The translations under genes and the position numbers were made by a program. A model generated the notes under the pieces. That model did not search any database, was not told where the DNA came from, and saw only the letters and a program-made list of their open reading frames with translations. From a virus, in IMG/VR virus record IMGVR_UViG_3300000233_000006, positions 1 through 38,216 of that record: a stretch of 38,216 bases of DNA; one strand, written 5' to 3'. Positions 3,978 to 38,216 of the stretch are shown one piece after another (position 1 is the first letter of the stretch; each line of letters opens with the position of its first letter).

Positions 3978-4535
3978 TTAGCCGTTACGGATGCCCCAGA
4001 GCCCGTCTTCAAGTAGGCTCACTTGACAAAACATACTATCGAAGCTTCCGAAAATAGTTAAGTTCGAGCCGTCTTCTCCAAAATCAGTGTCTTCGATTGA
4101 CATTACACTTAGCAAGGAGGTCGCTTCACTTGTAGATAGCATGATGTATTTGTCTCTGGCGACTTCGTTCTCGTTATCGAGAGTAGCTTGAACAATCGCG
4201 ATGATTTCTTCGTTGTCCCGATCTTCTTGAAGTTCGACGTTAGCCGACTTTAGGAAACCGTTTAAAAATTCGTCCGCGTTTTCTTTGAGTGTTTCGGTCA
4301 ATGCCTCAGTCAATTTAGAGAGGAGTTGGGTCTTCCTTTCTTGATTTATCTTGCTTATGAAGTATTCAAAAGGATACGTCCTTTTTGCAGAATTACCTTC
4401 TTCATCGGTAAATTCGAGTTCAATCGTTGTTTCACCAGTCTCTTGACTAACGAAACGTCTTATGGTATTGAAATCGTAATTACCAAGGACCAGGGTATCA
4501 ACGATTTCACATAATTCTCTTTTTAAGCCATCCAT
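3978..4535 (-). CDS. Hypothetical acidic protein (185 aa)
   Basis: Not recognised. The start is at 4535 (MDGLKREL), with GAGGTGG 5 nt upstream. The longer reading would start at a GTG inside the leader hairpin and is rejected. The protein is acidic, with helical segments and a central region QLLSKLTEALTETLKENADE. It has its own TATATTAC promoter at 4576-4583 with a leader of only about 40 nt, so it is probably an early gene. Such early phiKZ-type genes often encode host-takeover factors, but nothing here identifies the role. Confidence 0.7.
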   Translation of the reverse strand: MDGLKRELCEIVDTLVLGNYDFNTIRRFVSQETGETTIELEFTDEEGNSAKRTYPFEYFISKINQERKTQLLSKLTEALTETLKENADEFLNGFLKSANVELQEDRDNEEIIAIVQATLDNENEVARDKYIMLSTSEATSLLSVMSIEDTDFGEDGSNLTIFGSFDSMFCQVSLLEDGLWGIRNG

Positions 4536-4553
4536 AAACCACCTCGTTTTGAC

Positions 4554-4570
4554 TGACCCAACATGGATCA
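4554..4570 (-). promoter_or_regulatory. Palindromic leader hairpin (copy 3)
   Basis: The minus strand reads TGATCCATGTTGGGTCA: a 7-bp stem including one U.G pair, loop TGT. It begins 5 nt after the TATATTAC box and ends 18 nt before the start codon. The fourth stem pair differs from copy 1 (U.G against A-U), so pairing is kept. Confidence 0.55.
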
Positions 4571-4575
4571 CATAG

Positions 4576-4583
4576 GTAATATA
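4576..4583 (-). promoter_or_regulatory. TATATTAC early-type promoter box
   Basis: The minus strand reads AACTATATTACC preceded by an AT-rich stretch. It drives the 185-aa gene at 3978-4535. Confidence 0.7.
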
Positions 4584-4653
4584 GTTTTGTAAAAATTTAC
4601 CTTATATTTAGATAAAAATGTAATAAAGTGAAGTGCGTAACAAATGTCATAGA

Positions 4654-4685
4654 TACACCAGTCGCTACGTTCAGCGACTGGTGTA
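4654..4685. terminator. Hairpin terminator
   Basis: A 13-bp perfect stem (TACACCAGTCGCT and complement) with a 6-nt loop, placed after the stop at 4699 of the minus-strand virion-type gene. Confidence 0.8.
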
Positions 4686-4698
4686 GTATGGTGATTAA

Positions 4699-5904
4699 TT
4701 AAAACGAAGGTGCTGAACCCATAGATAGAGATTTAAGGATATCGACGATATCCGGACCTTTACCTTGTGAAGCTTGCTTAAGATCTTTAACGCTCACGGT
4801 TGAACCGGCACTAATACCGCGCGTATAGAACGTCACACGTTCCCATTCGCGATCAACCACGGCAATGATCATGGCGTACGTGTTTTTAAACAGTCTGTCG
4901 CGAACGGTTTTATTTGACATCTTACCAGACATCTTACGTTCAATGTTCTTAGCATCTTCTTCAGTGATGATGAAAATGTTTGATGAGGTTGCTAGGGACG
5001 GGTTGTTTGACAAAAACCCATAGCCTTTATTACGTTTCACGCGATTTAGAATTTCGGTATAAATACCGTCCTCATCTTTGATCATGAACTTACGATGTTC
5101 GTCGATAAGATCTTGCGCAAAAATCAAATCCTGAATCAAACGGATGCGACCGGAACGCCACGCGTGCCAGCGTTCAATAAAACTTTCTTCATCGGTTTTA
5201 ACAGCCAGAAGACGCGCGATCGATTCGCCGGTCATACTGGCTGTGGCAAGACGTACGGCGATAGGTACCTCAACCTCTTTTTCGTCAATCGTAATTTTAA
5301 CTGCGATAAGCTTACCAACTGAAAGATTACTGGTTTCAATGATGTTCTTTAGGTTATCACGATGATGGATAAGACTATCGGCATCGGACCGGAGTGCACC
5401 ATCCTCAACGTCGACAGGGTCATACATATTGACCCTATCACTTACGCTTTCAAGCGCTACTTTCTTTTCTTGACGAATACGGCGTACTTCAGATTCCAAG
5501 GCAAGCTGATTACCTGGTGTAGGAAGACGATATTTAAACGATTCTTCGTGACGAAGATGGTAACCCGGCATCGACTCGGTAATCACGGTAATGTCGTTAA
5601 ACTGACGATTCGGATTAAGCTTGTCAAGGATGCGTATAACCCTGGCGCTATCGACTGAACCTACGATAGATATGGCTTGAAGATAGTACGCCGCAAATAG
5701 ACTTAAGAGCGATTGCAGGACATCAGGTGTATAGCTCAAGGTTAGGCAATCCTTTGATATGACCGTCAAAGGTTCAACGCTTGCAGCCTGACCAACCTCG
5801 TTCAAAGAACGCGTTTCAAGATTACGAACGGCACGGTATATGTTCGAAGGAACGTCTCCTACAGAAGCAAATAGGTGCTGGAATGCATCGGTTAATGTTG
5901 CCAT
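4699..5904 (-). CDS. Putative capsid-internal virion protein (401 aa)
   Basis: Not recognised by motif. The start at 5904 (MATLTD) has AGAGGT upstream; the extra 27 codons of the longer frame cross the divergent intergenic gap and are rejected. The protein is mostly helical, with a hydrophobic stretch at about residues 60-82 (LLSLFAAYYLQAISI). Two ALES motifs lie at residues 135-138 and 150-153, either side of a basic stretch RRIRQEKK. In phiKZ-type phages the prohead protease cuts after A/S-x-E, so these may be maturation sites of an inner-head protein. That is inference from motif and from neighbouring virion genes. It is divergent from the plus-strand gene at 5937, with only 32 nt between the start codons. 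Confidence 0.65.
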   Translation of the reverse strand: MATLTDAFQHLFASVGDVPSNIYRAVRNLETRSLNEVGQAASVEPLTVISKDCLTLSYTPDVLQSLLSLFAAYYLQAISIVGSVDSARVIRILDKLNPNRQFNDITVITESMPGYHLRHEESFKYRLPTPGNQLALESEVRRIRQEKKVALESVSDRVNMYDPVDVEDGALRSDADSLIHHRDNLKNIIETSNLSVGKLIAVKITIDEKEVEVPIAVRLATASMTGESIARLLAVKTDEESFIERWHAWRSGRIRLIQDLIFAQDLIDEHRKFMIKDEDGIYTEILNRVKRNKGYGFLSNNPSLATSSNIFIITEEDAKNIERKMSGKMSNKTVRDRLFKNTYAMIIAVVDREWERVTFYTRGISAGSTVSVKDLKQASQGKGPDIVDILKSLSMGSAPSF

Positions 5905-23500: not shown

Positions 23501-23893
23501 TTAACTTTCCCGTTTCGAGACACTGCTTGGCTTAAAGAACATATCCATCGGATGGTCTGGTCGTAATAGTTTAAAGAACGATCTTGGATCAGTGATCCTT
23601 ACCGCCTGGTCTTCAAACGCGTAGGTTGCTGACATCGAACGCCTAAAGATATTTCGTTCAGCATGACTGACTTCAAAAGGCGTTGACGCATTAGGAAGAC
23701 GATAATCTTCGTCTTCAATACTTCGAACCATGACCGCATACAAAATGACTTCAAGGATCGATATGTTCACGTTAATTTTAGTATTAACGGTATCAAACAA
23801 CGCAGTTAGAACTTCACTTGGCGTGATATCCTTTTCAACGTTGGTAAGATACTTAACCGACGACTCGATGATCTTACTGATTTCCTTAATGTC
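23501..23893 (-). CDS. RNAP beta' C-terminal subunit, exon 2 (non-virion RNAP, phiKZ gp74-like)
   Basis: 130 codons after the group I intron. The reading frame is open from the 3' splice site at 23893 (DIKEISKIIESSV...) through the stop. The apparent ATG at 23800 lies inside the exon, has no ribosome site and is an artefact of the intron. The exon encodes the C-terminal helices of beta' (NISILEVILYAVMVRS, then PFEVSHAERNIFRRSMS). Joined to exon 1 (24318-25934) it gives 669 aa. Confidence 0.8.
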   Translation of the reverse strand, partial: DIKEISKIIESSVKYLTNVEKDITPSEVLTALFDTVNTKINVNISILEVILYAVMVRSIEDEDYRLPNASTPFEVSHAERNIFRRSMSATYAFEDQAVRITDPRSFFKLLRPDHPMDMFFKPSSVSKRES

Positions 23894-24317
23894 CAGTTAG
23901 CGCGCTACTGCTAACCCGGTGTGCTTCGACACCCGCCAACACTTTCATGTTGGAACAGACTATATCTTCACCTTCAGCTTAAACTGTTAAGGGTCTACTA
24001 TTTCGGCTTCGCTTGAAACCTACGCCTTACGGCTAGTCGTTGAACGTTCTTCATATCTCGTCTCACGACGATACGTAGAAGCTTCGCTGCGGATTACCCA
24101 ATCTTCATGTCTTTTACCGTACCCAGGTAATTATTCTGGCCACGCATATATTTCGATATGCGTTTGGTGCATGAAGCTCTAAAGGGACTTCCCGTCAATT
24201 AAATAGATATCGCTACGCCATTTCTGACATAGGTGCCATTAACAATGTTTGAGATCTAAATACCCAGCCTCCGGTAGGCTTTCCCGTATCTATTTTGGTC
24301 ACACATTGTTATTTTCT
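23894..24317 (-). ncRNA. Group I self-splicing intron in the RNAP beta' C-part gene (424 nt)
   Basis: The core matches group IA introns: P4 region GACGGGAAGTCCC, the AACGTTCAACGACTA element (P3/P7), and P7 3' strand AAGATATAGTCTGTTCC. The 5' site is set by pairing of exon AATGCT with internal guide GGTATT, ending in the required U.G pair. The terminal G is at 23894. In-frame stop TAA follows within three codons of the 5' site, so unspliced RNA truncates the protein. No ORF of useful length is present. A 46-nt block at 24058-24103 is identical to the intron in the beta gene (27032-27077). Confidence 0.9.
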
Positions 24318-25934
24318 AGCATTGTGATCCGCCATGTTGTAATGTTTGTAAGGCAGTACAAAAAGTGGCTTAGTATAATCCCATCGACTTAAGTCAAAGA
24401 CAAAGTTTGTGCGACCGTCGGTTCCGTACCCATATTTAAAAATGTACTCGATAAGTTCATAACTTAACATGGCTTTACGACCACTAAAGGTAAGTCGTAG
24501 CGGAACCGTCGTTTCACCGTCACGTGTCGTCGTAAACGATATCGCGGCATCACTTATCTCACTAACACGACTTAATGAAATGTTTTTAATATCTTCCATA
24601 GAGGTAAGGTCAGTAAGACTCGAACAACTTGTGATAGGTATCAAAATACTTGTCCTAAGTTCAAGCATCTCTTTACGTAAGTAATAGGAGTTCTTATCAT
24701 CACCCACTACAAAAAAGTTGACCTTAGTTTCATCAAGCGTTAAGGGTTCGATGTCGGATGAACCGTCGAAGTGCTTTGTTGACAAAATGTTCTGACCGGT
24801 TTGTTCCGTCATCGTTGCTGACGAAATATGGCCGAGATTATAATGTTCCGGAAGGTTGTGATGCAACTCTCCAAAACACACAGAACATATTATACCCTTT
24901 TCGATGTCTCGATGCTGACACCCTGCAAGGATGGAACGGATTTTTATCACCTTGTTTTCAAGATGTTTGTCTGTTATTTTAACGGACTTTAACGTTCCAT
25001 CATTATCGACATACTGTTTACCTTCAAAGTTAGCAAGGTCTCCTTTGTTGACGGTTCGTCCGCGTTCATCATAGACGGGAGGTTTGACAAGCCAGTCGAT
25101 GGTCTTGGTCGAACCACAGTCGCCATAATCAACATTCTTGATGATCATGGTAAGTAACTGAAGACGGCGCGCAAAATATTCAGAATCGCTCAAAGGGTCT
25201 TCTGCGAAGAACAATGATTTAGCCGCAGAACGCGATTCGATCACCGAATCATACAGGTCTCTAAATCCAGCAAAATAACCTCTTAAGATAGGTTCTCTAA
25301 AGATGGTCGAGTCAATGTCCGTAAGGAAACCGCGTGGACCGACGCATTGCAAAACCTGATTAGCTTTAACTACGTTAAAACGTACGGCTTTGGCAAGCTG
25401 ATTACGATTAAGGCTTTCAGAGCCTTTTAGACTCTTAAGGATGACCGAATAGCATTTGTCGATACTTCGCTGGGTTGGTCGAAGTTCTTTAAGGCTCTGA
25501 CTGATCTCCGGTTCGTCAACGATTTCGCAAAAGTCGAGTATGTCAATAGACGTGACATACGCTTCCGTATGCTTTGATAATTCATTATACGCTTCATTAA
25601 TTACCTCATAAATGCGTTTCTTTATATACTTTTTTGATTCAGGTGTGTTGAGTCTATAAACACTGACGACGTCGCGTAATAACGACGTCATACTTACACT
25701 TGAATTAAAGGCATTTCCTTTGAGTTGAGATTTGACGTGATGCCTGTAAAGAAGAGGCGTGTTGGGGTAAGAGCGTATGACGCCCCACATAAACCAAGAG
25801 AAAATAGTTTCTCTTGAATTCACCTCGACGACCTCCCCATCATCAAACGTAAGATTAAATGTTCCTCGAAGATTATTGACTAACGTCTCATAATCAAGGT
25901 TCATTAGTTTTCGTGCACTGAGATTAGGTTTCAT
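24318..25934 (-). CDS. RNAP beta' C-terminal subunit, exon 1 (non-virion RNAP, phiKZ gp74-like)
   Basis: 539 codons before the intron. Beta' landmarks: SRSAAKSLFFAEDPLSDSEY (bridge-helix region, near 235-254), YGDCGS, the IRSILAGCQHRD...GIICSVCFG cysteine block near 340-357, and trigger-loop segment TEQTGQNILSTKHFDG near 377-392. The start overlaps the stop of the beta C-part by ATGA, so beta and beta' C-parts are translationally coupled. That adjacency equals phiKZ genes 71-73 and 74 of the non-virion RNAP, which transcribes middle and late genes in the phage nucleus. It is the second beta' C-part in the window and differs clearly from the one at 16531-17823. Confidence 0.85.
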
Positions 25935-26830
25935 TCAGAGGACTCCACAGTTTTCCAACCCGCACACGCGGCGATATGATCGAAAATTTGCAATGACTTG
26001 GATAAACCATAGTCTTGCTTGGAACGATCAACCGCGCTATGTATGCGGCCTGGTTTATCAGCACCTAATATGGATGATACCACCATTTTGTGTGTGACAG
26101 GGTTATTGTTTCGATCCATGATTTCAGGGATCGCCTTAGGATGGCAGTACGATGCAATGATACGACCTTCGGTTTCGCCAACCGTTTTTACAGGGCTGTT
26201 CTTCCAAGGACGACCGTATTTTTCTGAACGCGTGATCGGTGACAGGATACCGAAGTGCTGCATCGTTGCTGACGATACCGCCGACCAGTCATCTGCAATC
26301 TTTTCGAGAACAAGAAAATACATCGGTGCAACACGTACGCGCTCTTTCGTGGTATGTCGACGACCTGAATTCCCTACGTACGATACCGGACCGAACGTCG
26401 GTTTGAATCGTGCTTCTAAGCGTCTCACGATAACCGGCGTTTCGATCGGGTTGTCTGTTGGGATAAAAAGGTATAGGCGATCTTTAAGGATCGTTCCCAT
26501 AATCTCTTCAACGTCATCTTCATTGAGCTTACTATAAACATCATGCTGTCTAGGTGACGCGATTTCATAAAACGACATGACTTCATTAACATGAAACGCG
26601 TACTTCTCTGGCAAAGTATTTTTGAACTGACTGAGTGTTAAAGTACCGACGTCACGCTTAAAACGTAATTCGATCTCAAGACATACCGAACCAAAATAAT
26701 GTTCGTATAAACGACCAATGTTGGTTCGGTCAATCGTTGAGTTACCGTCCATAATCACATCAGCCCGAACGCCAAGTTCGTTAACCGGCATGTTTTCAGG
26801 CTTTTCGATTTTACAAATCACTCCCTTACC
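25931..26830 (-). CDS. RNAP beta C-terminal subunit, exon 2 (non-virion RNAP, phiKZ gp71-73-like)
   Basis: 299 codons after the intron. The exon begins GKGVICKIEKPENMPVNE, continuing the universal beta motif (E. coli HGNKGVISKI...EDMPY), with the second catalytic lysine as its second residue. Further beta landmarks: RTNIGRLYEHYFG (equivalent to MNIGQILETHLG) and a C-terminal clamp anchor ending LQIFDHIAACAGW. The GTG at 26821 that would begin a stand-alone ORF is an artefact. With exon 1 the protein has 695 aa. Confidence 0.85.
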   Translation of the reverse strand, partial: GKGVICKIEKPENMPVNELGVRADVIMDGNSTIDRTNIGRLYEHYFGSVCLEIELRFKRDVGTLTLSQFKNTLPEKYAFHVNEVMSFYEIASPRQHDVYSKLNEDDVEEIMGTILKDRLYLFIPTDNPIETPVIVRRLEARFKPTFGPVSYVGNSGRRHTTKERVRVAPMYFLVLEKIADDWSAVSSATMQHFGILSPITRSEKYGRPWKNSPVKTVGETEGRIIASYCHPKAIPEIMDRNNNPVTHKMVVSSILGADKPGRIHSAVDRSKQDYGLSKSLQIFDHIAACAGWKTVESSE

Positions 26831-27241
26831 CTCGTTGTCCGGTTAGTTCGCAACGCTAACCCGGTGTGCTTTGACACCCGCCAACACTTTCATGTTGGGA
26901 CAGACTATATCACCACCTTCAACTTAACTTGTTCAGGTGCTTCCCGTTTCGGCCCCGCTTAAGGTCTACTCTACTTATCAAATACCGTTCTGATATATGA
27001 TTTTCGATAGTCGTTGGACGTTCTTCCTATATCGTCTCACGACGATACGTAGAAGCTTCGCTGCGGATTACCCAATCCTTGTCGTTTTTACCATACCCAG
27101 GATCATTACACTGGCCACAACGTAACTTTCGTATACGTGCTTGGTAGACAAGGCTCTTAGGGACTTCCCGCAATTAGAGAAGTTTTCGACCAGTATTTTT
27201 ACTGGAAGCGGCTTGATTTGAATTTTACCTCAAATCAGTTA
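26831..27241 (-). ncRNA. Group I self-splicing intron in the RNAP beta gene (411 nt)
   Basis: Group IA core as in the beta' intron: P4 TTGCGGGAAGTCCC, AACGTCCAACGACTA, P7 3' strand GATATAGTCTGTCCC, terminal G at 26831. Exon CGGT pairs with internal guide GCCG (U.G at the splice). The P1 loop contains a perfect TGATTTGA/TCAAATCA hairpin, and a second CCAGTA/TACTGG hairpin follows. The first intron codon is TAA, so unspliced mRNA stops exactly at the exon end. The last 45 nt are identical to the partial intron at the right window edge. It has no internal ORF and so depends on an external enzyme if mobile. Confidence 0.92.
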
Positions 27242-28429
27242 ACCGTGAATGTCGGTAATTTTGTTACCCATGTCAGGTTTAAGCGTATACTCTACCGTAA
27301 TCTCCACGCGATAGTCGTCTAACGTCGTTCGACGATAAACCTTTTCAATCTCCTCTACACCTTTCTTATTTTTTCTTCCAAGAACAGAATAGGCTTCAAT
27401 AAGAAGCCTATGAAACTCAGGCGATATTCTGAGTTTCTTTTCACCGTACTTACGGTAATGATCCTGTTTAATGTCCTTGTAAGCTTCAAGAATATCGTTG
27501 TAAAAAGAACGTAAGGCGCGTGCGTACTTGTCCGGAACTTCGCAAACTTCACGAGGTGTAGGGATGTATTCGTTATCGTCGTGATAGACCTTAATATCGA
27601 TGACGCGACCGCCTTTACCTCGCGTGTAAATTTGCTTATCGAAGATATAGTCGATTTCTCGACAATCTAGGAAAGACATTTCGACAGGAGCGAGATCAGG
27701 ACGGTATTCCCTTAGAGCCATGAGTACACCGTCATCACGGATCATGTCGCCAATTTCAGGAAATGGACGATAGACCTTATCGTCACCGTACATGTTGAGG
27801 GGAAACGTATTCTTACCGAATTCAATGACGCGTTTTTCAAACGTGTTAAATGACATGCGGTCGAGTACATCCTCAGATACGATGATACCGTCCTCAGATA
27901 CGCCAGGTAGAGACATGTACGCGATATTGAGTTCGATACCATAGGCATAACCACCCGAATGTATTTTCGAGCGACTGTCGTGACTTACAGTTCCTTTAGC
28001 GACATGGTTGCCCGGATAAAACTTTGTGGCGTCCTGCGTCTTAACGAGCTTGAAACCATGATATTGATGGTATGACCTGAAATACGGTACGGTAAAAATA
28101 CCGACGATACCCGTGACAGAAGATTCGTAAACGAATATTTTCTCAGGTGAGTGCGAAATATAATCCTTAGACAATGTCTTTGGATAGCGCTCAATCACTT
28201 TTAAGATGAGTCCGTCTTCGGGCATACGAACACCTAGCGTATGTTTACCGATCTCATATTCGATACCGGTTTGAAACCGATGTTCGGTAGCATCTTTGGT
28301 CACAAGACATTGTGATAGATGCGAACTAAACATTTGCTGACGGGAAGACGAGTTATGCCCCGCAAATGGGTTAAGTGCAAGGATAGATAGGAACTCAGGT
28401 TTGAGTTCCGATTTCGATTCTACGGTCAT
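27242..28429 (-). CDS. RNAP beta C-terminal subunit, exon 1 (non-virion RNAP, phiKZ gp71-73-like)
   Basis: 396 codons. Beta landmarks: NPFAGHNSSSRQQM near 20, NIAYMSLPGVSEDGIIVSED near 170-190 (equivalent to NGYNFEDSILVSE), and the final KPDMGNKITDIHG carrying the first catalytic lysine. The beta N-part (Rif pocket front) is absent and must be another gene, as in phiKZ. The leader AATAGAGGTGTTTT before the ATG is identical to that of the 510-aa gene at 33282. A TATATTAC box at 28473-28480 drives this operon of beta C, beta' C and two introns. Confidence 0.88.
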
Positions 28430-37940: not shown

Positions 37941-38171
37941 TTAAACCTCCATTAATTTTATAAAACCTTCATCCATCGCACTTTCCTCGTTAACATACTG
38001 CATCCAGTTCGCGATATTCGAAATCACAGGACCTGGTATACTAATGTTTCTTGAAGTGGATAATACCTCTTGCCTTAGGGTAGTAAGACCGTTGCTAGGC
38101 GCAAGCGGACTCATGTAACGCTCCATGTCCTCATCAACCATTAACATCACGTTCATTTGATCGCCATCGAA
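37941..38171 (-). CDS. RNAP beta' N-terminal subunit, last exon (partial; phiKZ gp55-like)
   Basis: 76 codons from the 3' splice site to the stop. The exon begins FDGDQMNVMLMVDEDMERY, the second half of the universal beta' active-site motif NADFDGDQM, whose Asp residues bind the catalytic magnesium. SPLAPSNGLTTLRQEV corresponds to the LSPANGEPI region of E. coli. The apparent ATG at 38156 is internal. The upstream exon with the first catalytic Asp lies beyond the window. Position ahead of the SbcD, gp68-70 and gp71-74-like genes fits the non-virion beta' N subunit gp55. Confidence 0.85.
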   Translation of the reverse strand, partial: FDGDQMNVMLMVDEDMERYMSPLAPSNGLTTLRQEVLSTSRNISIPGPVISNIANWMQYVNEESAMDEGFIKLMEV

Positions 38172-38216
38172 CTCGTTGTCCGGTTAGTTCGCAACGCTAA
38201 CCCGGTGTGCTTTGAC
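38172..38216 (-). ncRNA. Group I intron in the RNAP beta' N-part gene (3' end only)
   Basis: All 45 visible nucleotides are identical to the 3' end of the intron in the RNAP beta gene (26831-26875), ending in terminal G at 38172. The exon that follows opens exactly with the FDGDQM codons in frame. The rest of the intron is outside the window. Confidence 0.88.

Follow-up and report, generated by a model that had tools for sequence, protein, structure and literature searches.

The window analysed here is a stretch of 38,216 nt that comprises bases 1-38216 of a 127,910 b phage record (G000), and the neighbouring DNA beyond its end was read in a segment covering bases 38000-50000 of the same record (L004). 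At the end of the window, on the minus strand, lies the gene for the N-terminal part of the RNA polymerase β′ subunit (β′ N), with two exons separated by a 426-nt intron. Exon 1 encodes 411 aa (G000 39830-38598) and closes with the codons GGC CCG AAC GCT GAT, for GPNAD (...KGPNAD). The intron occupies G000 38597-38172, its part outside the window being read in L004 598-173; it starts with AGTAAATG... (also given as AGTAAATGCTCC...), has a complete group I core behind this start, and ends with ...CTAACCGGACAACGAG. Its last 45 nt (38172-38216) fall within the window and abut TTCGATGGCGATCAAATG, which encodes FDGDQM and opens exon 2 (37941-38171, 76 aa plus stop), where the codons from 38171 downwards read FDGDQMNV. 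The minus-strand reading therefore agrees with the initial annotation, which took these 45 nt for an intron end next to an FDGDQM exon. Single ambiguous bases (N) occur at G000 38217, where the window stops, and at 38776 and 38787.

The intron matches the Rfam group I model RF00028 over its full length (model positions 1-253) at L004 223-529, with a score of 109.1 bits (E 3.7e-28; gathering score 50), and its boundaries were set from the reading frame and P1 pairing. The two exons join in frame (411 + 76) to give a protein of 487 aa in which NADFDGDQM is restored. The joined protein, from which exon 2 was assigned along with PhiKZ gp55, aligns with positions 1-475 of the 478 in phrog_2987 at 464 bits, compared with 411 bits for exon 1 alone. 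Because of the core score and the restored protein, chance is excluded as an explanation. PHROG labels phrog_2987 'RNA polymerase beta subunit', and the protein is the N-terminal part of β′. Its best solved relative is PhiKZ gp55 in PDB entry 7ogp, with an alignment that is unbroken through '..pnadfdgdq..'. The NADFDGD motif supplies the three catalytic aspartates and corresponds to 417-DFDGD-421 in PhiKZ gp55 (PMC8287921). The comparison of frames, core, and homologues thus confirms a predicted group I intron between GAT, the codon for the first aspartate of NADFDGD, and TTC. This position (NAD^FDGDQM, with ^ marking the insertion point) is where the initial annotation had placed the cut, between the first catalytic aspartate and FDGD; the exon ending in NAD and the intron core that it expected within about 400 nt are both present in L004.

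A homologue of the nuclear-shell protein chimallin (phrog_4795, L004 1964-3799) is encoded beside the β′ N gene, and the order of the shell gene, β′ N, and two downstream genes is the same as in Burkholderia phage FLC9, whose own shell homologue was matched. Matches to phrog_2987, phrog_3295, and phrog_3015 together make up a split multisubunit polymerase that has the DxDGD motif and the shell gene nearby, as is characteristic of chimallivirus non-virion RNA polymerase (nvRNAP). From the shell-gene neighbour and the FLC9-like order we therefore assign the record to a chimallivirus, one of the giant nucleus-forming phages, and the interrupted gene to its nvRNAP. A megablast search with 15 kb against phages returned no match.

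Splice-site pairing

The ends of the intron follow the rules for group I introns: the 5′ exon finishes in a U that faces a G of the internal guide, and the last base of the intron is a G (...ACAACGAG). Exon GAU would pair with guide GUC, leaving a U.G pair at the splice site, and the same GAU/GUC pairing occurs in the introns at this site in locus L037 and Aeromonas phage PS1. This part of P1 is only 3 bp long, compared with 6-7 bp and much stronger pairing at FDG^D sites. It is extended in the three NAD^FDG introns by stems that differ in sequence yet are complementary: GUAAA/UUUAC, CUUUAAACC/GGUUUAAAG, and GUAUUUA/UAAAUAC. Because GAU/GUC and an extension are found in all three, they support a 5′ splice site after NAD and standard group I splicing. 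A 5′ site three nucleotides upstream, after GCU, would offer a stronger pairing (ACGCU/GGCGU) and was rejected because its use would delete the catalytic aspartate, and because GAU/GUC is common to the two other NAD^ introns. The intron would cut itself out of the mRNA and join the exons at the predicted junction GCTGAT^TTCGATGGC, which would restore NADFDGDQM. The best explanation for the locus, to which we give a probability of about 0.93, is a self-splicing group I intron inserted exactly at GAT^TTC in the β′ N gene of a chimallivirus nvRNAP.

Two further group I introns in the same polymerase

The window holds two other group I introns, both on the minus strand, and no more were detected in the record. 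The first, of 411 nt (26831-27241; RF00028, 89.7 bits), interrupts the nvRNAP β gene at HG^GKGV, with a 5′ site after CACGGT and a GCCG guide that includes a U.G pair. Its flanking exons, exon 1 with 396 aa (27242-28429) and exon 2 (25931-26830), match positions 6-402 and 407-690 of the 698 in phrog_3295, and the joined β protein matches positions 6-690 of 698 at 673 bits. A lysine flanks the insertion on each side, with an eight-residue spacing between the two (NKITDIHGGK). The active centre of PhiKZ gp71-73 contains conserved lysines with the same spacing, K386 and K394 (PMC8287921), and the two pairs probably correspond. Introns occupy the catalytic centres of both large subunits, at HG^GKGV in β and NAD^FDG in β′, as originally noted. 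The second intron, of 433 nt (23885-24317; RF00028, 94.4 bits), interrupts the gene for the C-terminal part of β′ at HNA^EISK (EISKII), a less conserved position. Its 5′ site was placed from P1 pairing and alignment with FLC9 and is less certain. The frame agrees; exon 1 (24318-25934) matches positions 5-527 and exon 2 (23501-23884) positions 559-651 of the 653 in phrog_3015.

Introns at the same catalytic motif in other phages

A profile search of IMG/VR gave 46 loci, of which some are redundant and two represent cultured phages (PA7 and 2050HW). The β′ N gene is interrupted in nine of the 46, at RN^P, just before NAD, or at NAD^FDG, FDG^D, or FDGD^, and it is uninterrupted in FLC9 and most other loci. 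The closest counterparts of our intron are in Aeromonas phages PS1 (L018) and PS2 (L070) and in L037, an IMG/VR locus from an uncultivated virus, where the same gene is interrupted at the same nucleotide by an intron with the GAU/GUC guide pairing and a similar 3′ P9 module; by sequence, the exact NAD^FDG site is common to at least these two other lineages. They differ from our copy in that L037 has an HNH ORF, and PS1 and PS2 have a second intron 9 nt downstream; none is annotated as an intron in the records seen. In PS1 (L018 1994-3628) and PS2, the introns at NAD^FDG and FDG^DNM surround a 9-nt exon, TTCGACGGT (FDG), and the second intron holds an HNH ORF.

Other phages have group I introns in the same motif of the same gene at shifted positions. 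In the PhiKZ group, represented by PA7 and PS119XW (PhiKZ gp55 / gp56.1), the site is NADFDGD^Q, 12 nt downstream of ours and with a perfect 6-bp P1. In PA7 the core is followed downstream by a 345-aa ORF that has HNH-like sequence, and this phage also has a β intron at HGG^KGV, so introns in both large subunits were already combined in that phage. In Moabite-type Serratia phages (2050HW, Totoro) and Aeromonas D3 the site is FDG^D, 9 nt downstream of ours, and the Totoro intron carries an HNH endonuclease. Sequence comparison thus indicates that the arrangement is already known, as related phages, the PhiKZ group included, have introns here or a few codons away at most; we found no published account of phage introns at NADFDGD in the incomplete literature that can be searched.

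Several loci carry more than one insertion. In L028 (about 4214-4966; IMGVR_UViG_3300030508_000018), two group I introns flank a 20-nt exon that consists of the end of an F codon plus NADFDG. In L063 (4131-4871), L062 (4060-5400), and L023 (4115 on), the same gene is interrupted at RN^P, in the conserved RNP motif, where an Rfam match identifies the intron in L063, and those in L062 and L023 were judged from broken frames and core signatures. L063 and L062 are interrupted by another intron, at FDG^ or FDGD^, and an HNH-like ORF follows the break in L023.

Related insertions occur in other polymerase genes. The nvRNAP β intron of PhiPA3 (gp065 region) is the one that most closely matches our introns in their 3′ half; its site, HGG^KGV, is 3 nt downstream of our HG^GKGV. 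The virion-polymerase gene gp210 of PhiPA3 contains an intron with an HNH endonuclease that is directed against PhiKZ (Birkholz et al, 2024, PMC11620839). Like ours, this group I intron interrupts a chimallivirus polymerase where aspartates are conserved, and it shows the effects that such introns can have when phages compete; unlike ours, it interrupts a virion polymerase, lies after an aspartate pair aligned with E. coli RpoB D675, and has an endonuclease that was tested (PMC11620839). A group I intron with an adjoining ORF annotated as a putative endonuclease interrupts the virion polymerase β gene of Serratia phage 2050HW (L022 1410-2839). In Yersinia phage phiR1-37 (L019 1435-2830), the β′ gene g178, annotated as a structural protein, stops at GGDFDG; behind it come an intron-like core, which does not reach the gathering score of Rfam, and ORF g179. 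This is possibly another intron at the same motif, in a virion polymerase.

The β′ N intron contains no substantial ORF and no endonuclease gene within its 426 nt, and none of the phage's three introns contains an endonuclease gene. No HNH_3 or NUMOD4 genes are recognisable in the available 128 kb of the genome, and the one GIY-YIG match in the record is below the cut-off and contains stops. Occupancy of the site varies as for a mobile intron, being absent from FLC9 and most loci and present in PS1, PS2, and L037, where the L037 copy at the same NAD^FDG site carries the HNH ORF. These relatives suggest that the β′ N copy, too, has been mobile. In the simplest history, the intron would belong to a homing set that reuses the most conserved codons of this polymerase, into which it would have homed in the past, and it would since have lost its endonuclease, or may never have had one. 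The initial annotation proposed selection for unavoidable, highly conserved targets. That such codons are the target is well supported by the positions in other phages, since every intron located there in this gene is either at RN^P or inside a stretch of about 20 nt at NADFDGD; selection on target codons would be consistent with homing followed by endonuclease loss. That homing introns target conserved codons is an established principle that has already been stated (PMC12908238) rather than a new inference.

In a broader reading, the catalytic loop of nvRNAP would be a hot spot for docking: several group I lineages would compete there within some 20 nt, swap domains, and be able to stack with micro-exons. 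In this phage, gene conversion would keep the three endonuclease-free copies similar, and the copies would jointly form a splicing gate on late transcription. We consider this combined scheme unlikely. It is rather less probable still that the phage has kept its three introns for regulation, as a timing gate and not as selfish remnants, so that splicing of β, β′ N, and β′ C would all be needed before the late polymerase assembles: such a set would account for three endonuclease-free introns with near-identical 3′ halves in one enzyme, but all three are missing from the closest relative, FLC9, and the introns have a scattered distribution in the family, as would be expected for mobile elements.

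Apparent mosaic composition of the β′ N intron

The last 81 nt of the β′ N intron are identical to the β intron when the N at G000 38217 is read as T, and the 45 nt within the window correspond to 26831-26875 of the β copy. The identity with the β intron reported initially thus holds for these 81 nt, the 45 nt included, and not for the whole introns, which are 78% identical over 259 nt and have 5′ parts that cannot be aligned by BLAST. The phage's own introns have near-identical P6-P9 segments, and the P6-P7 segment of the β′ N intron matches both other copies at 96-98% identity. In contrast, its P2-P5 half is unlike them and is closest, at 82%, to the Aeromonas D3 intron at FDG^D, with shuffled sequences scoring far lower. 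The β′ N copy therefore looks like a mosaic that arose by recombination between intron lineages, apparently with the phage's own β intron as one partner, and the initial assignment of the introns to one family is half right. An exact-pattern scan of IMG/VR with the 3′ end of the intron gave no match.

A local assembly error could mimic such a mosaic, with the N lying inside the shared 81 nt. An artefact might extend to the whole intron, or the assembler might have filled in the 3′ half from the β intron. The identical 81 nt and the N within them would fit such an error, but the exon frames on both sides and the gene order match those of relatives, the intron's upstream half does not resemble the phage's own copies, and the same site bears introns in other viruses. 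An artefact could thus affect only the 3′ half of the intron and not its presence, and we regard it as very improbable.

Discussion

Jumbo phages normally have split RNA polymerase genes (PMC7598289), but the idea that β′ N is merely split, with two polypeptides translated and assembled without splicing, is scarcely credible and was rejected: the catalytic metal-binding loop itself would then be cut in two, the gap between the exons is occupied by a complete group I core, and the PhiKZ chain in the solved structure (7ogp) is entered as one polypeptide, named PHIKZ055 plus PHIKZ056.1.

The self-splicing group I intron proposed here at NAD^FDG provides a clear case, with an exact insertion site, of the rule by which phage introns insert into invariable codons. 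Several distinct intron sites lie in one 21-nt catalytic motif, sometimes two at once around a 9-nt exon, and this site cluster and the micro-exon most deserve further study. Sequence comparison and simple splicing assays can test how introns that compete for a target share or shift it. The split polymerase genes of jumbo phages have been proposed to result from intron mobility (PMC7598289), and the NAD^FDG intron bears on that origin.
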